Positions 4,001 through 38,043 of a DNA stretch of 39,607 nt are shown here, in pieces. Numbering within the stretch: the stretch's first letter is position 1; every line of letters begins with the position of its first letter. The position numbers and the translations under genes are program-made. The notes under the pieces were generated by a model, which searched no databases, had not been told where the DNA came from, and saw only the letters and a program-made list of their open reading frames with translations. Origin of the DNA: Desulfobulbaceae bacterium (lineage in GTDB: Bacteria; Desulfobacterota; Desulfobulbia; Desulfobulbales; SURF-16); assembly GCA_020444175.1 (NCBI GenBank), contig JAHLLM010000048.1, forward strand, positions 1 to 39,607, read 5' to 3'.

Positions 4001-5621
4001 TCAGCATGGTCCGTTCGGCCAACTCTTTAAGGTTCAGGCCCGGTTTTACAATTTTGCCATAACCGGTGGAAACTCCTTTATTACGGGCACCCAGTGGAAA
4101 TTCAAAGAAGGGTGGACGAGACTCGTCATTTTTCTGATATATGCGCCATTTCTTGTTGAAAGGCTGGAAAAGATCAAGGTGTTTGCCTACACCTTCGGCA
4201 TTGCCCAGGAAAAGGAAGCCGTGGGGCTTGAGAGAAAAATGAAACAGGGAGATAATGCGCTTCTGCGCTTCGCCGTTCAGATAGATAAGGAGGTTGCGGC
4301 AGGAAATAAAATCGACTTTTGAAAAGGGCGGATCAGTCAGGAGATTCTGCATTGAAAAAATTACAGCGTCTCGGACAAATTGTTTGACGCAGTATTTGCC
4401 CTCCGAAAAGTTGAAAAACCGCTGCAGACGGCGGGGAGCAACATCCGCTTCGATGCTTTGCGGAAAAACGCCGCAACGGCCCCGTTCCAGGGCGAATCTG
4501 TCAATGTCTGTGGCAAAAATCTGCAGTCGGCAATTGTTTTTGCCGAGCCGGGAGAGCGTTTCGAAAAAAACAACGGCAATGGAGTATGCTTCTTCTCCTG
4601 TTGCCGACCCGGGGACCCAGATCCTGACAGGTGTGTCCGCATCAGCCTTGCGGCAGATTTCCGGTGCCACTTTTTTTTCAAGAACCTGAAAGGCTTCGGC
4701 ATTCCGAAAAAAACCGGTAACAATAATCAGCAGGTCCTTTGAAAGGGACTCACGTTCACGGCTGTCCCGCTCAAGTTTCAGGCGGTATTGAGCAAGGCTG
4801 TCCAGGGAATGGATGCCCATGCGTCTTTCGATACGGCGGATCAGGGTGCCGCGTTTATACGAGTTGAAATCAGACAGTCCTTTTTCTTTTAAAAGAGCGA
4901 GGATTTTCAGAAGCTCCGGTTCATCTTCAGAAATATGAGGTTTTCTGTCGGAGCTGCCTGCATAATATGAATGTTTGACATAATCCAGAAGAACGGAGGG
5001 CATCTTTGCCGCAGGAAGAATAAAATCGATGAGGCCGGTGCTGATTGCCGAACGGGGCATGCCGTCGTGAAGCGATTCTTCCGGATCCTGGGCCATGGCC
5101 ATGCCACCCTCGGCCTTGATGGATTTCATGCCGAGGGTGCCGTCGGCACCGGTGCCGGAAAGAATGATACAGATCGATTTGTCGCCCTGGGTTGCAGCCA
5201 GAGAACGGAAAAAAGAGTCAATTGGCAGGCGCAGTCCCCGTTCTTTGGAAAAATTTTCAAGCTTCAGGGTGCAGCCGCTGATAAGAAGGTTTTTGTTGGG
5301 AGGGATGAGATAGACATGATCGGCCAGGACCGTCATGTTGTTTTCGGCCTGGAGCACGGACATGTCGGTACAGCGACCAAGAAGTTCGGCCATTGAGCTT
5401 TTATGATTGGGATCCAGATGTTGGATAACTACGTAGGCCATGCCGTTCTTCGGAGGCATGGCCTGGAAGAATTTTTTCAGGGCCTCAAGGCCGCCGGCCG
5501 AAGCGCCGACAGCCACCACGGGAAATTCAGTGCTGCTGTCGTTTTGAGGAGATTTGAGCTTTTTTGCCTGCCTGTTCTGCTTATTTGGAGCATCCTTGTG
5601 ATTGTGTTGTTTTGACGTCAT
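1089..5621 (-). CDS. CheB-CheR-PAS hybrid histidine kinase with receiver
   Basis: This is a 1510-aa multidomain signalling protein. Residues about 32-215 form a CheB methylesterase with S41 (GASAGG), H68 (QHLDPNH) and D160 (GTGADG). Residues about 235-497 form a CheR methyltransferase with a SAM loop (GSATGEEAYS) and SCRNLLIYL. A long coiled coil spans about 665-750. Three PAS-like modules follow (about 755-855, 865-980 and 990-1105). The kinase core has H1160 in VLHNDMQQ and an HATPase with KELLFNTVKHA and GIGLRS. A C-terminal receiver (1390-1505) has D1442 in LDVNMPDMNG and no output domain. CheB-CheR-PAS fusions are known in many bacteria and are usually not part of classical chemotaxis operons. 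No che genes are nearby. It converges on the NarL regulator, leaving 10 bases between the genes. Confidence 0.93.
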   Translation of the reverse strand: MTSKQHNHKDAPNKQNRQAKKLKSPQNDSSTEFPVVAVGASAGGLEALKKFFQAMPPKNGMAYVVIQHLDPNHKSSMAELLGRCTDMSVLQAENNMTVLADHVYLIPPNKNLLISGCTLKLENFSKERGLRLPIDSFFRSLAATQGDKSICIILSGTGADGTLGMKSIKAEGGMAMAQDPEESLHDGMPRSAISTGLIDFILPAAKMPSVLLDYVKHSYYAGSSDRKPHISEDEPELLKILALLKEKGLSDFNSYKRGTLIRRIERRMGIHSLDSLAQYRLKLERDSRERESLSKDLLIIVTGFFRNAEAFQVLEKKVAPEICRKADADTPVRIWVPGSATGEEAYSIAVVFFETLSRLGKNNCRLQIFATDIDRFALERGRCGVFPQSIEADVAPRRLQRFFNFSEGKYCVKQFVRDAVIFSMQNLLTDPPFSKVDFISCRNLLIYLNGEAQKRIISLFHFSLKPHGFLFLGNAEGVGKHLDLFQPFNKKWRIYQKNDESRPPFFEFPLGARNKGVSTGYGKIVKPGLNLKELAERTMLKHFTPCGVVINRHHDILYFLGNTENFLKIPEGDSTTNLMAMTPTSIRISLRSLLHKITEDREKPADTVLVLPGKTRETYKIIELGVRRIDTEPQEEPLYLVTCRELPEIQTVQHKTVVQNACCDTHELVISQLESELRTTREDLENTIIMLENSNEQLKTSNEEAMSLNEEFQSTNEELETSKEELITINSQLLGKINELEKMTNDLNNLLASSEIGTLFLDAELRIKRFTPTIQKLFHLLPSDVDRPLQDFESNFSTLLLVEDATRVMEQIIPLEKELQTADGRWYLQRILPYHTATKRVEGVVITFTDISCIKKVEIKAERRAAFLQMITNIQPARMAYVDSRERYQYVNDTYLEWVMLPRDQVIDRTVRSVLGAAFYKQIAPYIQKALKGRKVHFETTLNYPDSKTRHIMADYTPNVDALGNVVGFFTLIIDITERNRLESSLRESEELHRTIGENVPFGSWTSDAQGHFTHVTKPFLDMAGMTLDEVLGFGWLSRVPQEERDELEKEWLRCLRTGRDWNYEYRFLGGDGKLYDIMALGRPIRDAKGAIKFWAGFHLDISERKKLEKELQAINRSQETKIRERTAELEEKMLQLRRLTLELTQTEQRERERLSMVLHNDMQQLLVAGKLQVESLMEKLKVNRNIKGMQQIFTIFEQLTESARNLASDLRPPMLNLRPREKMHWLADWFQEKFDLTVQLHISENFDEEKITDETSTYLFESAKELLFNTVKHAGVNTVSLSLGVDDKDCLFLIVADKGRGTDKEVLSPQENKKPGIGLRSIYDRLRSMGGDLTVTTSPANGFKADIRLPYSENSDVCRAPQTVDESIGRDESRQRQETDHQGNRQQEITIVLADDHAIVRDGLVLILQEEDDMRIVGEAASGREAVELASRLSPDVCILDVNMPDMNGIEACRLITAMVPTTRVIGLSVNGNPEIARIMTKAGAFAFHRKSDPPKELCRTIRDCVKKK

Positions 5622-5739
5622 ATTTTTCCTCTTATCCGCGCGGCCATGTCATTGTTAGACGTAACTGCCTGCTAGATCAGCATTATAACAGAAAACGCCC
5701 AGACACAGAGACATTTATGCCCTTTAGCGGTACAAAATT

Positions 5740-5755
5740 TTTATAAATGGCATGG
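5740..5755. repeat. 16-bp direct repeat, copy 1
   Basis: TTTATAAATGGCATGG occurs here and again, identical, at 6376-6391. Both are preceded by GGTACA at slightly different distances. The pair brackets the gene at 5819-6211. Copy 1 overlaps a candidate sigma-54 promoter. Confidence 0.8.
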
Positions 5756-5763
5756 TTCTTGTT
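5748..5763 (+). promoter_or_regulatory. Candidate sigma-54 promoter
   Basis: TGGCATGGTTCTTGTT fits the -24/-12 consensus TGGCAC-N5-TTGCW except for a C-to-T change in each half. It lies 55 bases before the start codon of the small receiver-like protein at 5819. A sigma-54 activator is encoded at 29954-31435, but no link between the two is shown. Confidence 0.4.
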
Positions 5764-5818
5764 GTACAAAAAAATAGGATGCACGCCAATCAATAGATGC
5801 AAATTTAACAGGGGTATC

Positions 5819-6211
5819 ATGGTTTTATTGCTCGACATGAAGAAAAACAACGGGGTCGGCAAGAGTCTTTTGGAAAAAGTGAACAAAGTTGTTCTCCATG
5901 ACCAATTTGAAGAGTTTCATAGCTTTGAAGCGCTGTTTCAGTGTCTTGTCAAATCGTGGGATGAGACAGAGATTATCATACTAAGGGCCGCTTCAGGAAA
6001 GGATCTTGTTGATTTCATGCGAATACGGGGCCTGATGCGGGATGTTCAGATTCTTCTCGTCTTGCCGGACCGAAAGTCTGAAACACTTGTTCAGGGTCAT
6101 CTTCTGCATCCGCGCTATATTACCTATGAGGATGGCAATTTTGATGATCTGGCTGCCGTGCTGCAGAAAATGCTGAACAGAAAACGCCAACAGTTTCATA
6201 TTTCCTCCTGA
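5819..6211 (+). CDS. Small receiver-like protein without phospho-acceptor
   Basis: This 130-aa soluble protein is not assigned to a named family. Its alternating hydrophobic strands and helices (IIILRAASGKDLVDFM, VQILLVLPDR, ITYEDGNFDDLAAVLQKML) resemble the second half of a response-regulator receiver fold. The usual acidic pair and phospho-Asp motif are not recognisable, so it may be a pseudo-receiver. The ATG at 5819 has AGGGG about five bases upstream. A longer in-frame reading from 5747 would start inside the candidate promoter. The gene lies between the hybrid kinase (divergent) and ubiB (convergent) and has its own candidate sigma-54 promoter. Confidence 0.75.
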   Translation: MVLLLDMKKNNGVGKSLLEKVNKVVLHDQFEEFHSFEALFQCLVKSWDETEIIILRAASGKDLVDFMRIRGLMRDVQILLVLPDRKSETLVQGHLLHPRYITYEDGNFDDLAAVLQKMLNRKRQQFHISS

Positions 6212-15071: not shown

Positions 15072-15172
15072 AGTTTGAAAAATCATTGCTTACAAAACAG
15101 AACAATATACAGCGCCTGATCTTAAATAATCATCATCAAAAAACTATCCTCATTCAAAGTGGAGGGAAAACA

Positions 15173-16276
15173 ATGGATATGGATAAGGAGAAAAGAGCAC
15201 GATATGGAGTTATTGCGGGGCTTCTCGTGCTCGCCGCTGTCTGGATGTTTTATGCGTCTGGAACCAGGGCTGACGAGGGTAAATTTCCAGCTTCTGAGTT
15301 TATTGCCTCTTCCCAATGGCTTCTTGAGCATGCTAAGGACCCAACCGTCCTTGTGGTTGATGTAAGGGACAAAAAAGACAAGGATATGGTTTTTATTGAC
15401 AATGCTATTTCCTTACCGTGGAAACTCTTTCGTTACAATGACGGGGCGCGGGGTATTGCCGAAGCCTTCGTCGGTTACTCCAGAGCCCAGGAGATTCTAG
15501 GCAGCCATGGAGTTTCCAGAAGCGACAGCATCGTTTTGTATGATTCCGTAAAAGAAGATGGGGGTGCAACTGCGTCCTATGTCTTCTGGGTGCTTGATCT
15601 CCTGGGACACAAAAAAATAAAAATCCTTGACCGCGGCATAGATGGTTGGATAGCTGCCGGCGGCGCCACAACATCTTCCCCGAGAGTTCTTCAGTCAATC
15701 CTTTACCAGGCACACCCGGGCCAAATAAAACTTCGTCCCTGGAAAAACGGTGATTTTATTGCAATGCGACTGGGAGATCCCCACTATCAATTGCTTGATG
15801 TTCGATCCCGTGAAGAATATCTGGGGCAGAAACCCAATGTAGGACTGGACGGCAATATCTTGAATATGGGACATATACCAACAGCGTATAATGTTGATTA
15901 CCGGCTGAACTGGAGCAGCCCTGAAGAAAAAGCTATCCGTTCCTATACGGAACTGCTTTCAATATATAAAGGGATTGATCCTGAAAAGGCAGTAATCGTG
16001 TACTGCCATTCAGGGAGACGCAGCTCCTTCAGTTATTTTATTCTCAGGGCCATGGGGTTCACGGATCTTATTCTTTATGAGTTGTCCTGGAATGAATGGG
16101 GCAACAAAGAGTATTTTTATCCAGCAGAAACAAAAGAGAACACGATTAAAAGTGACAGGTTGCCGATAGTCGGTGGTCTGGAAGGCTCCCGCCCCCGGGC
16201 CACTCAAAGCCAAAAAACCGCAGAGTCCGGAAAATTGGAGCCCATGAAGGGTGGCTATATTTCTTGTGGAGGGTGA
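15173..16276 (+). CDS. Membrane-anchored double-rhodanese sulfurtransferase
   Basis: This 367-aa protein has an N-terminal signal anchor (about residues 11-30, GVIAGLLVLAAVWMFYASG) followed by two rhodanese domains (about 40-165 and 185-320) in the extracytoplasm. The first domain lacks a catalytic Cys (YDSVKEDGGATA at the loop). The second has the persulfide-forming Cys in VYCHSGRRSS. The tail ends in YISCGG, adding another Cys. The ATG at 15173 has GGAGGG six bases upstream; a longer frame from 15086 is open but lacks such a site. It is the first gene of an operon with two YeeE/YedE genes, suggesting it moves sulfane sulfur or thiosulfate-derived sulfur to or from the transporter. Confidence 0.9.
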   Translation: MDMDKEKRARYGVIAGLLVLAAVWMFYASGTRADEGKFPASEFIASSQWLLEHAKDPTVLVVDVRDKKDKDMVFIDNAISLPWKLFRYNDGARGIAEAFVGYSRAQEILGSHGVSRSDSIVLYDSVKEDGGATASYVFWVLDLLGHKKIKILDRGIDGWIAAGGATTSSPRVLQSILYQAHPGQIKLRPWKNGDFIAMRLGDPHYQLLDVRSREEYLGQKPNVGLDGNILNMGHIPTAYNVDYRLNWSSPEEKAIRSYTELLSIYKGIDPEKAVIVYCHSGRRSSFSYFILRAMGFTDLILYELSWNEWGNKEYFYPAETKENTIKSDRLPIVGGLEGSRPRATQSQKTAESGKLEPMKGGYISCGG

Positions 16277-16280
16277 AATA

Positions 16281-16796
16281 ATGAACCAAGACAATAAGTC
16301 TCCATACTGGCAAGTACTGCCTGCGGCCATAGCTCTTGCCGGAATCATTGTGTATATTTTTGCCACATTTGGCCCACCTGCCTCATCAAGTGGCTTTGTC
16401 TCCACTTTAAAAGGGTTTCTCAACTATTTTGCACCTGATTATATCTCTAATAAAGAGCATTACCTAATGATTCCCGGACCCGGATCATGGCTTATGAGTT
16501 TTGTTATCGGCATGGCCATCGGCGGGTTTATCGGCGGAAGAACTTTTTCCAAAAAAGTTGAAGATGTCCCGAAGGTATGGGTAGATCGTTTCGGAGATTC
16601 CCGACCTAAAAGATATGCCGCAACTTTTTTAGGTGGTTTTCTCATTCTTTTTTCCTCGCGAATGGCCGGAGGCTGCACTTTAGGTCTTTTTATTTCCGGT
16701 AGCACGCAGCTTGCCTTAAGCGGCATCTATTTTGGAGCGGTAATATTCGCCGCTGCCATGTTGACTTCGCGGCTGGTATACGGACAACAGAAATAA
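16281..16796 (+). CDS. YeeE/YedE family sulfur transporter, first half
   Basis: This 171-aa membrane protein has about four hydrophobic segments and the family signature FSSRMAGGCTLGLFISGSTQLALSG, whose Cys is typical of the YeeE/TsuA thiosulfate channels. YeeE proteins are often encoded as two half-size polypeptides, as here. GGAGGG precedes the ATG at 16281, four bases after the rhodanese stop. An earlier in-frame ATG at 16251 lies inside that gene. Confidence 0.88.
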   Translation: MNQDNKSPYWQVLPAAIALAGIIVYIFATFGPPASSSGFVSTLKGFLNYFAPDYISNKEHYLMIPGPGSWLMSFVIGMAIGGFIGGRTFSKKVEDVPKVWVDRFGDSRPKRYAATFLGGFLILFSSRMAGGCTLGLFISGSTQLALSGIYFGAVIFAAAMLTSRLVYGQQK

Positions 16797-16811
16797 TCAG
16801 GAGGAAAAGTA

Positions 16812-17349
16812 ATGACAGATGTTTTTCTTGGTCTTTTTTCAGGTATTTTTTTTTGGTTTTATTATCCAACGTATTGGTGCCACTAACCCCCACAAAATGG
16901 CCAAGGCCCATCTGATGAAAGATCCGGCTATTCCACAGTTCATGTTGCTGGCTATTGTTTTTTCAGCAATCGGTCTCTTTGGTCTTCAGGCAACGGGCAT
17001 CGACAAAACAGTAATACTGCCGACCAGCCTTGTGGCCACGAGCCTGGCAGCTATTATCTTTGGAATGGGCTGGGGACTGGCAGGATATTGCCCGGGAACC
17101 TGCTGGGCTGCCATGGGAGAAGGACGGATGGATGCGGTCTTCGCTTTCTTTGGCGGCCTTCTCGGAACGGCAATTTTTGCTCATTTTCATGAATGGATAA
17201 TTCCCCGGCTGTACATGCCGACAAATATCGGCCGGCTGACCCTGGCCGATATCGCAGGTAACAAATATATTGGTTTGATCATACTGCTTATCCTTTTTAT
17301 CGGCGGCGTATGGACCATCAACAAGTATTGGGGACATGAAAAAAATTGA
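16812..17349 (+). CDS. YeeE/YedE family sulfur transporter, second half, with T9 frameshift
   Basis: From the ATG at 16812, preceded by CAGGAGG, the reading is MTDVFLGLFSGIFF and then fails at a run of nine T (16846-16854), meeting a stop after about ten more codons. Removing one T joins this start to the long frame FGFIIQRIGATNPHKMAKAH and gives a normal half-size YeeE protein of about 178 aa. That protein has LAGYCPGTCWAAMGEGR (two Cys) and four or five membrane segments. Starting at the alternative ATG 16819 gives the long frame directly but with poor ribosome-site spacing. Slippage on the T tract, phase variation or a sequence error are all possible. Confidence 0.8.
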
Positions 17350-34564: not shown

Positions 34565-34596
34565 TGTGTAAATAAAAAATAATGACGGAGGAAGGC

Positions 34597-34941
34597 GTGA
34601 AGGGGTTTATACGAGTGATGAAAGCATTGTCTGATCCCAGCAGAGTCAAAATCATCAAAATGCTGAGCCGGAAAGAGATGTGTGTCTGTGAAATAACGGC
34701 AGTTCTTAAACTTGCCCAACCGACGATCTCTAAGCATCTGAAGATCTTAGAAGATGCCGGGTTGGTTGATTTCAGCAAGGATGGTTCCTGGGTCAATTAC
34801 AGGCTCGATTTGCAGTCTGCTAACCAGTACGCCGAAGTTATGCTGGAGCATATGCAGAACTGGCTTGAGGACGATAAGGAAATTCGGGAGATTCTCGCCA
34901 GGGCAAAAGAGGTAAACCGTGCAAGTTGCAATGCTCCATAA
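34597..34941 (+). CDS. ArsR-family metalloregulator
   Basis: This 114-aa winged-helix repressor opens with VKGFIRVMKALSDPSRVKII, has the metal-box motif MCVCEITAVL (Cys-x-Cys, as in ArsR-type As(III)/Sb(III) sensors) and the recognition helix AQPTISKHLKILEDAGL. A second Cys lies near the C-terminus (ASCNAP). GTG at 34597 is preferred over ATG 34582 because CGGAGG lies five bases before it and the protein then begins as family members usually do. It heads a unit with a 27-codon ORF and a thioredoxin; no arsenite pump or reductase is present. Confidence 0.9.
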   Translation: MKGFIRVMKALSDPSRVKIIKMLSRKEMCVCEITAVLKLAQPTISKHLKILEDAGLVDFSKDGSWVNYRLDLQSANQYAEVMLEHMQNWLEDDKEIREILARAKEVNRASCNAP

Positions 34942-35120: not shown

Positions 35121-35507
35121 ATGAGAAAACCAGGTCTTTTTATCGCATTTTTTTGTTTTCTGTTTTTTGCCGTTCCAGTCATGGCATCGAGTACACCGTT
35201 TCAAATTCCCGTTCCAGGCATGGTAACCATGGTTGATCTTGGGGCCAAAACATGTGTTCCCTGCAAAATGATGGAACCGATCCTGAAAAAACTCAGCACG
35301 AATTATGATGGCAAGGCAGTGATAGCCTTTATTGATGTCTGGCAGGAACCGGAACAATCAAAAAAATTCAAGGTGTCAATGATTCCCACCCAGATTTTTT
35401 TTGATAAGGACGGCAAAGAGGTTTCCCGCCACGTGGGATTTATGAGTGAGAAAGAGATCGTTGACCAGCTTGCAAAAATGGGAGTGGCCGATCCTCTGAG
35501 AAGATAA
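35121..35507 (+). CDS. Exported thioredoxin-fold protein
   Basis: This 128-aa protein has a cleavable signal peptide (GLFIAFFCFLFFAVPVMAS) and a thioredoxin domain with active site CVPC (GAKTCVPCKMMEP) and the cis-Pro loop SMIPTQIFFDKDG. It should act as a periplasmic thiol-disulfide oxidoreductase. AAGGAAGG precedes the ATG. It is in the arsR unit, suggesting induction by metal or metalloid stress. Confidence 0.9.
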   Translation: MRKPGLFIAFFCFLFFAVPVMASSTPFQIPVPGMVTMVDLGAKTCVPCKMMEPILKKLSTNYDGKAVIAFIDVWQEPEQSKKFKVSMIPTQIFFDKDGKEVSRHVGFMSEKEIVDQLAKMGVADPLRR

Positions 35508-35874: not shown

Positions 35875-36807
35875 ATGCTGACGACAACACAAAAGAAAAC
35901 CGCCGAAGCCATTATAAATATTTTTGAAACCAGCGAAGTTCTTGGCAACTACAGTCTGGTTACACTCATTTCCGGAGACACGGGACATCTCACCTATGGC
36001 CGCTCGCAAACCACGCTGGGTTCTGGAAACCTGTATACGTTGCTGCAACGCTATTGCGAGAATCCCGGTGCACGTTTCAGTGCACGTCTTGAACCGAGCC
36101 TGCCACGCTTCTCAGCCTGCGACCTTTCCCTGGATAATGACCTCAAGGTGCACAACCTCCTGCGAGCCAGCGCCGATGATCCGGTGATGCGCGAGACCCA
36201 GGATGCCTTTTTTGACGATGTCTATTGGCAACGAGCTGCTCGTACCGCCAAGCGCAAGGGGATCACCAGTCCCTTGGGGGTGGCGGTGGTCTATGACAGC
36301 TTTGTACATGGTTCATGGCAGGCCATGAGTAATCGTACAACCACGCAGATTGGTGATGTTGCCGCTGTTGGTGAACAGAAGTGGATCAAAGAATATGTGG
36401 CCACCCGCCGATTATGGCTTGCCAGCCATTCCCGGGCTGACCTGCGTGCTACAGTATACCGTCAGGATGCTTTTATGCGCCTGATTGATCAAGACCACTG
36501 GGCATTGAACCTGCCTCTGGTCGTCCGCGACAGGGAGATTTCCGCCTCTTCGCTTGCAGCTACTCCTCCCGGCTGCTTTGACGGCCCGCAGCCGGGCATC
36601 CGTGTTTTGTCCCTCCAGTCTCCAATGCAGCGTGGAATGGATGTGCGTCTGGTGCAACTGGGGCTTTCCGAGGCCGACATAGACATCAAGGCGGATGGTT
36701 TTTTCGGTCAGACTTCCGTCCGCCTCCTCAAAAAGTATCAATCCGCCCACGGGCTGCCCGTAACCGGTGTGGCTGATGTGGCATTAATTGCGCAATTGAC
36801 AAGTTGA
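35875..36807 (+). CDS. GH46-like chitosanase/lysozyme with peptidoglycan-binding domain
   Basis: This 310-aa protein has an N-terminal catalytic domain with FETSEVLGNYSLVTLISGDT, then GHLTYGRSQTTLGSGN, resembling the glycoside hydrolase family 46 active-site region (acid in the FETSE segment, Asp35 after the GNYS strand). A C-terminal PG_binding_1 repeat follows (about 245-308; GMDVRLVQLGLSEADIDIKA, DGFFGQTSVRLLKKYQ). No signal peptide is seen, so export would need another route or the enzyme acts during lysis or on the cell's own wall. It is expressed through a GEMM riboswitch, linking it to cyclic dinucleotide signalling. Polysaccharide, chitosan or murein are all possible substrates. Confidence 0.82.
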   Translation: MLTTTQKKTAEAIINIFETSEVLGNYSLVTLISGDTGHLTYGRSQTTLGSGNLYTLLQRYCENPGARFSARLEPSLPRFSACDLSLDNDLKVHNLLRASADDPVMRETQDAFFDDVYWQRAARTAKRKGITSPLGVAVVYDSFVHGSWQAMSNRTTTQIGDVAAVGEQKWIKEYVATRRLWLASHSRADLRATVYRQDAFMRLIDQDHWALNLPLVVRDREISASSLAATPPGCFDGPQPGIRVLSLQSPMQRGMDVRLVQLGLSEADIDIKADGFFGQTSVRLLKKYQSAHGLPVTGVADVALIAQLTS

Positions 36808-37731: not shown

Positions 37732-38043
37732 ATGCATCGTTTGAAATTTATCTCGATTTTTCCCATGCTCTTTATCCTGACCTTTGGCTGCGCCCATGCT
37801 GACGTAAAATTGGGTGCAGCCGAGGCCACCTTTGCCGTTCGCTGATATGATGTCGGAGCAGCCGCCTTGGAAAGGCGGCCGGGCATTTTGTCGGTGAGCA
37901 AGGGATGGCAGGATGGTAAAGAAATAAACCGTGTTGTCTTTGATCCTGAAATTATCACTGTGCGCCGGATTGAAGAGCGGCTGAAGCAGGCCGGAACCTA
38001 TGTGCAGACTCTGGACGAACCGGACATGAAAAAGCAGGAGTAG
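37732..38043 (+). CDS. Putative exported HMA-fold selenoprotein (in-frame UGA)
   Basis: From ATG 37732 the frame reads a signal sequence (FISIFPMLFILTFGCAHAD) and meets TGA at 37843-37845. Past it, the same frame continues to TAG at 38041 as YDVGAAALERRPGILSVSKG, REINRVVFD-like INRVVFDPEIITVRRIEERL and KQAGTYVQ. That downstream part has the pattern of a heavy-metal-associated (MerP-like) domain, in which the UGA falls at the first Cys of the metal site (VRxYDVGAAAL). A stem-loop right after the UGA fits a bacterial SECIS. Read as selenocysteine, the product is 103 aa with Sec38. Otherwise the gene would be a nonsense pseudogene with a 37-aa product. The mature protein is probably a lipoprotein or periplasmic. 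Confidence 0.72.
37861..37879 (+). promoter_or_regulatory. bSECIS-like hairpin
   Basis: GCCGCCTT and AAGGCGGC form a perfect 8-bp stem with loop GGA. The loop begins 23 bases after the UGA, within the usual 16-37, and has G in its first two positions, as bacterial SECIS elements require. Confidence 0.65.

Follow-up and report, generated by a model that had tools for sequence, protein, structure and literature searches.

A very small exported selenoprotein of Desulfobulbaceae that is probably an overlooked part of the methionine sulfoxide repair kit

Results

A short reading frame with an in-frame TGA follows a gene for a methionine-rich protein

The DNA analysed here, referred to as the window, is the whole 39,607-nucleotide stretch at positions 1 to 39,607 (forward strand) of contig JAHLLM010000048.1 from a Desulfobulbaceae bacterium (GCA_020444175.1). 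Close to its downstream end we read a short open reading frame (ORF) with a single in-frame TGA at codon 38 and 65 further codons after it, as described in an initial annotation of the sequence (Table 1). Its start codon is separated by 9 bases from the stop codon of a gene encoding a methionine-rich protein, for which no Pfam family was found. Removal of the predicted signal peptide would leave a mature product of about 70-80 residues.

Other genes were noted on the same strand of the window. A gene for an ArsR/SmtB-type regulator (34582-34941), 2.8 kb upstream of the selenoprotein gene, is followed by one for an exported thioredoxin-like protein with a CVPC motif (35121-35507). Positions 35875-36807 encode a glycosyl hydrolase family 46 domain, which we take to be the chitosanase family, together with a peptidoglycan-binding domain. 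A rhodanese protein and two membrane proteins resembling YeeE/YedE on visual inspection are encoded at 15086-17349.

Table 1. Coordinates of the selenoprotein gene, its parts and the gene directly upstream of it in the window
Feature	Position	Strand	Details and basis
Methionine-rich exported (probable lipo-) protein, 86 aa	37462..37722	+	Read directly; lipobox LGGC by eye
Selenoprotein ORF, 103 aa with Sec38	37732..38043	+	Read directly; start ATG at 37732, terminal TAG 38041-38043; coordinates include the stop
Predicted signal peptide, cleavage about AHA|D	37732..37800	+	By eye, from the hydrophobic N-terminus of the translation
Predicted beta-alpha-beta-beta-alpha-beta domain, residues 30-95, with Sec38 and Glu64	37819..38016	+	AlphaFold2, invariant columns, MsrA alignments
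UGA read as selenocysteine, codon 38	37843..37845	+	TGA in 53/55, TGC in 1/55 and GCA in 1/55 distinct loci
bSECIS hairpin, 8 bp stem, loop GGA at 37869-37871	37861..37879	+	Covariation in 42 sequences and single fold

The TGA is almost certainly read as selenocysteine

The initial annotation had proposed a selenoprotein, pointing to a perfect 8-bp stem with loop GGA that begins 15 bases after the UGA. This hairpin, GCCGCCTT-GGA-AAGGCGGC, was found at 37861-37879 as described. The loop has 3 nt with G first and lies 23 nt from the UGA. Folding of 51 nt gave an energy of -23.9 kcal/mol (z -3.55), which none of 200 shuffles equalled, and the hairpin lies within all four bSECIS constraints in the printed section 5 of PMC13188914, which include an energy below -7.5. 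The pairing was conserved in an alignment of 42 sequences: 92.9 % of the cells were paired and both sides had changed in 5 of the 8 pairs, and neither score was reached in 500 shuffles.

Searches with single sequences were weak and recovered none of 37 relatives, and a first scan of contigs with the whole protein, one of its patterns having Cys at the TGA position, returned no locus. Restricting the query to the part after the TGA solved this problem. A search of 395 genomes of the phylum found 8 relatives in other genomes at E < 1e-10, each with one TGA, one relative at 2e-7 without a stop, and weaker matches. A post-TGA query, built from these 8 relatives and the window by taking only what follows the TGA, matched 42 GTDB loci; in 41 of them a TGA codon directly precedes the match. 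The exception, L092, looks chimeric, since its upstream part resembles the start of a response regulator in another frame. The matched loci came from genomes labelled Desulfobacterota, Nitrospirota, SAR324 and a Myxococcales MAG.

With a profile, 9 loci were detected in the 395 phylum genomes at 99-112 bits, the window included and all with one TGA, followed by one Ser-bearing locus at 63.5 bits and nothing further above 30 bits. At class level, 257 genomes yielded 20 loci from 19 genomes other than that of the window, with TGA in all but one, which has Cys; the remaining match (33 bits, genome G571) is an NF041383 protein. The Cys homologue (L176, genome G607) carries TGC and reads straight through. 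The Ser homologue (L056, L128 and L166, genome G050) has no MsrA or MsrB hit within 8 kb. The family gene is also present in genome G540 (L180) and in a cultured organism, Desulforhopalus sp. IMCC35007 (L115).

Fifty-five distinct loci were counted after removal of 7 duplicates, L187 (sister of L178), the NF041383 member L177, L056 and L128, and a copy in genome G124; L092 was retained. The phylum-search loci L048-L055 and L119-L127 were dropped as well, most of them lying on the same contigs as named ones (L052 was not in the set). The one locus among the 55 with GCA instead of TGA has a chimeric-looking junction. As only a single close Cys homologue and a single Ser homologue were recovered, the family is nearly Sec-only.

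Reading frames were compared in 52 loci, that is the 55 without L092, L110 and L178. The first 55 codons past the TGA were free of in-frame stops in all of them, and the other two frames contained a stop in 50 and 44 loci. Differences at codon positions 1, 2 and 3 amounted to 25, 27 and 58 %.

The genome of the window encodes SelA (621.9 bits), SelB (367.8), SelD (379.1) and tRNA-Sec (67.2), all over cut-off, and its SelD gene itself contains a TGA. The initial annotation had named such sel genes, along with homologues carrying Cys or TGA at this position, as the places to look, and both were found. The gene selA was present in 22 of 26 other genomes with the Sec form and was not found in the other four (G428, G430, G540 and G555). 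It was equally common in relatives lacking the selenoprotein gene (28 of 31), and its co-occurrence is therefore no argument for a selenoprotein. The idea that Cys and Ser forms arise where the Sec machinery has been lost failed, since G607 and G050 both have selA over cut-off.

If the UGA were a true stop, the gene would encode a short peptide or be a pseudogene. The Ser homologue could be taken in this sense, as could the decayed-looking TGA copy in G124, but the open frame past the TGA with its third-position bias, the Cys homologue and the covarying hairpin make this reading scarcely credible. TGA in 41 of 42 loci retrieved without that codon in the query, the Cys homologue, the covarying SECIS and the full Sec machinery together give strong support to a selenoprotein. 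On these grounds we regard it as practically certain that 37732-38043 (+) is a selenoprotein gene, and the recoding as good as settled at the level of sequence.

The degraded-looking copy in G124 (L165, about 5530-5850, minus strand) keeps the TGA, and its second half is eroded. G124 belongs to the same order as the window's organism. The copy directly precedes a gene for an MsrA-MsrB fusion, and a kinase and regulator resembling those of other loci are encoded about 2-4 kb further upstream.

Family genes lie mostly beside genes for methionine sulfoxide reductases

Of the 55 distinct loci, some of which are cut by contig ends, 36 encode MsrA and/or MsrB within 1.8 kb on the same strand and none on the other. 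Six further loci had no Msr and encoded an Oxidored_molyb protein (sulfite oxidase/MsrP superfamily); one such protein was tested and scored below the MsrP and SorA cut-offs. Neither type of neighbour was found in the remaining 13 loci, the window among them, some of these again being cut by contig ends. A small control gave Msr or molybdo hits in 14 of 63 other loci, of which 12 had been included for matching MsrA themselves and 2 were one locus (the G124 copy). Several of the linked MsrA and MsrB proteins have signal peptides by eye. In L050 and L080 the Sec domain is fused behind MsrB, and there was no MsrA hit on the 10.9 kb contig. The window's contig ends 1.8 kb after the UGA and had no Msr hit over its 39.6 kb; the same genome encodes an exported MsrB-MsrA fusion on contig C56.

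The methionine-rich neighbour recurs in the family. A small ORF with at least 12 % Met lay just upstream in 10 of the 55 loci (the window and 9 of the 54 others), compared with 11 of 3155 random positions. A first, strict scan, taken as it stands, spoke against enrichment: 4 hits fell in the 0.46 Mb of family loci and 7 in the 0.35 Mb of "background". Four of these 7 stem from further copies of family loci (L001, L127, L055 and L122) and the other 3 from L010 and L135. Met-rich segments were also seen inside or before the Msr proteins of L081, L087, L096, L097, L098 and L102; the domain limits were checked with Pfam in L102 alone. A kinase or regulator resembling those of L089 was encoded in 28 of the 55 loci. 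In L117 and L183 the order was complete: regulator, kinase, Met-rich protein, selenoprotein and MsrA-MsrB.

These operons look like a Sec version of the methionine cycling by MrpX/YedYZ (MsrP), in which, according to the part of PMC4623255 that deals with it, a periplasmic Met-rich peptide and a MetO reductase cycle methionine and detoxify hypochlorite. As in that description, a small exported Met-rich protein is encoded beside a MetO reductase. Unlike it, the family loci encode a selenoprotein, MsrA/MsrB in 36 of 55 loci, and a molybdo protein without Msr in 6, and they have a two-component system in place of the SigF/NrsF of the MrpX/YedYZ account. The window copy departs further from the arrangement described there, as no MetO reductase gene stands beside it on the contig.

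The predicted fold fits both HMA domains and the MsrA core, and the Sec falls on the MsrA catalytic position

AlphaFold2 predicted a confident domain (pLDDT about 97 for residues 31-90) behind an unstructured signal region of low confidence. Family members share the pattern ATFYVA-U-YDVGKAALEGxxGVxxVxxGFxGxREINTVxYDP. Thirteen columns were invariant across 41 sequences, including the Sec and a Glu at window residue 64. Between 8 residues ahead of the Sec and 62 behind it, none of the 52 loci encodes a Cys.

Among the matches listed, the nearest solved folds were those of heavy-metal-associated (HMA) and MerP proteins (Z 10.5 to 3dxs, 10.3 to 1osd), and the best PDB sequence match was MerP (E 0.0005). 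MsrA was absent among the 50 fold matches listed by Z; in another structure comparison the core of E. coli MsrA (1ff3_B) superposed at rmsd 1.4. A ferredoxin-like fold common to HMA/MerP and the MsrA core is the predicted architecture, and this very small domain lends itself to a comparison of the two folds. HHalign, run with profiles from small home-made alignments of which the HMA one includes some ATPase tails, gave E 2.7e-9 over 58 columns for MsrA and 2.3e-7 over 51 for HMA.

The strand before the Sec and the Sec itself aligned without gaps with ATFAGGC of MsrA, whereas the GMxCxxC loop of HMA is longer. The Sec aligned with the MsrA catalytic Cys (GCFW) at the N-end of helix 1, a position that equals the second HMA Cys. 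In HMMER alignments the invariant Glu64 fell on the Glu of the MsrA GHxE motif (GHAE), chain position 94 of 1ff3 by offset, which we take to be catalytic; HHalign placed a gap after Glu64 instead. The VxYDP strand and the linkage to MsrB are further likenesses to MsrA (PF01625/TIGR00401, including its Sec form GUFWG). Unlike MsrA, the window protein, at roughly half its size, has neither the insert nor the C-terminal half, carries Tyr-Asp where MsrA has Phe-Trp after the Cys, and scored below the Pfam cut-off (PF01625, PMSR: 12.8 bits versus a gathering score of 23.7; best of ten members, E 0.00096).

At cut-off, the family was covered by none of the models in NCBIfam 20.0 or Pfam. The best NCBIfam match was NF041383 (VPGUxxT family thioredoxin-like (seleno)protein, type 2), at E 3.8e-9 and 36.6 bits versus a cut-off of 275, and only over profile positions 143-209. 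Its C-terminal part is, by sequence comparison, the nearest known domain. Since 67 window residues aligned with these 67 profile positions, neither the window protein nor the C-terminal domain of NF041383 has an MsrA-type insert. In NF041383 proteins the domain sits behind a thioredoxin domain carrying that family's Sec motif, whereas the window protein has no thioredoxin; membership in NF041383 as a whole was rejected for this missing part. The true member L177 (330.7 bits) joins a thioredoxin to a family-length domain with ACFW at the Sec position, 34 % identical to the window protein over 64 columns. The gapless alignment around the Sec, the placement of Glu64 on the GHxE Glu by HMMER and the insert-free NF041383 domain that keeps ACFW all speak for MsrA.

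The initial annotation had described a clear HMA pattern in which the Sec replaces the first of the two Cys in a MerP-type site, as a soft metal ligand. In such a reading the Sec would bind Cu(I), Ag(I) or Hg(II), and the upstream Met-rich protein would be a periplasmic copper sponge; Met-rich proteins can bind copper. The fold part of the claim stood, with HMA/MerP as best fold and PDB sequence matches. The ArsR/SmtB-type regulator of the window and a SO_0444-like Cu/Zn efflux permease near L095 (below cut-off, 1.6 kb away, opposite strand) also count on this side. So does NF041115 (UxxU metal-binding (seleno)protein), which matched ten of ten family members at E up to 1 (best 1.3e-9) and resembles them, like MerP and HMA, in the small ferredoxin-like fold and the Sec on the second U/Cys. 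The window protein scored only 12.8 bits against the NF041115 cut-off of 95, however, and has a single Sec with neither UxxU nor CxxC. The two-ligand GMxCxxC site is missing: the Sec holds the second position rather than the first, and no other Cys was found in any of the 52 loci. In NCBIfam and Pfam, the models for HMA or metal binding all stayed below their cut-offs, for the window protein and for ten members, and Msr or molybdo neighbours occur in 42 of the 55 loci. A MerP-type metal site was therefore set aside as first choice, with one ligand position only and mostly Msr neighbours (36/55), and we consider metal binding rather improbable.

A candidate role in periplasmic methionine sulfoxide repair

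Because its relatives lie mostly beside genes that repair oxidised methionine, this very small exported selenoprotein is probably an overlooked part of the methionine sulfoxide (MetO) repair kit. Judged from gene order and alignments, the Sec protein is likely to belong to a periplasmic MetO module. That it is the Sec component of such a module and most likely works by MsrA-like chemistry seems to us somewhat probable, and that it reduces MetO directly is a serious possibility falling just short of probable. We counted against the MetO reading the 13 of 55 loci without an Msr or molybdo neighbour, the rank of HMA folds above MsrA, and the presence of an own MsrA hit in 33 of the 36 Msr loci. 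The absence of an Msr hit on the window's contig, MerP as best PDB sequence match, the missing C-terminal half of MsrA, the PMSR score below cut-off, the HHalign placement around Glu64, the permease near L095 and the persistence of selA in the genomes of the Cys and Ser forms were weighed on the same side.

In the proposed mechanism, oxidants would strike sacrificial methionines, which the upstream Met-rich protein offers in the window and Met-rich stretches within or ahead of Msr proteins offer elsewhere; reduction by Msr enzymes would then restore Met. The Sec selenolate would attack the sulfoxide sulfur as in MsrA, with Glu64 supplying the proton; Met would be released and Se-OH formed on the Sec. 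An outside thiol would then be needed for regeneration, since the Sec protein has no resolving Cys, and it could come from the Cys of MsrA/MsrB or from a periplasmic thioredoxin. The CVPC thioredoxin-like protein encoded about 2.2 kb upstream of the selenoprotein is a possible source of periplasmic thiols. By analogy, the fusion of thioredoxin to a similar domain in NF041383 fits a thiol-regenerated redox domain.

The lone Sec without a resolving Cys would also suit a shuttle that hands electrons from a periplasmic thiol system to oxidised MsrA/MsrB and does not act on MetO itself. The own MsrA of most Msr loci and the fusion to MsrB agree with such a redox partner, but the CxxU/UxxC pair usual in these donors is missing, and 6 loci have a molybdopterin enzyme as partner; MsrP-type enzymes take their electrons from the quinone pool and not from thiols. 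That the gene is linked to thiol-based Msr in some loci and to a molybdenum enzyme in others suggests to us that these partners have their substrate in common and not their electron donor. This favours action on MetO over a pure shuttle role, which we judge unlikely.

A Sec-based scavenger of peroxide or hypohalous acid, guarding the same compartment with Met residues as co-scavengers, would likewise account for the linkage to the repair of oxidant damage and for the kinase or regulator in 28 of 55 loci. It leaves the invariant Glu unexplained, and no peroxidase family was among the Pfam or NCBIfam matches; we think it improbable.

Within the MetO reading, the most specific version is offered tentatively and is rather doubtful as a whole: a minimal Msr of ~70 residues with one Sec that alone reduces the MetO of a co-encoded sacrificial Met-rich lipoprotein in anaerobes meeting oxidants at their surface, often under a co-encoded two-component system. 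More broadly, the family offers a testable view of how selenium may serve anaerobes in restoring oxidised methionine beyond the cytoplasm.

Relation to catalogued selenoproteins

Hypothetical selenoprotein DG (NF049953) was rejected as an identity, being a separate locus both in G540 and in the window's own genome. The copy in the own genome (G000:C35:9082-9594, "ribbon DG") has one in-frame TGA, and its G557 homologue has none. Ten family members, searched at E up to 1, matched none of the NF0499xx models (e.g. hypothetical protein DF, NF049942).

In the sections consulted, neither the 119-family table of PMC13188914 nor the list in PMC9312934 has an entry that fits, MsrA, NF041383 and NF041115 apart. 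The portions of the literature searched contained no paper naming such a family; an earlier mention elsewhere is possible. According to a passage of PMC12013277, every known selenoprotein now seems to have a Cys homologue, and the deep-Sep filter may drop those without one, so that nearly Sec-only families can be overlooked. The family presented here would add one that methods based on Cys homologues tend to miss.

In six further loci (L019, L021, L022, L028, L039 and L040), from several genomes of the phylum, an in-frame TGA takes the place of the MsrA catalytic Cys (GUFWGP or similar) in a long protein with a C-terminal extension. Sec-MsrA proteins of this kind are already known.
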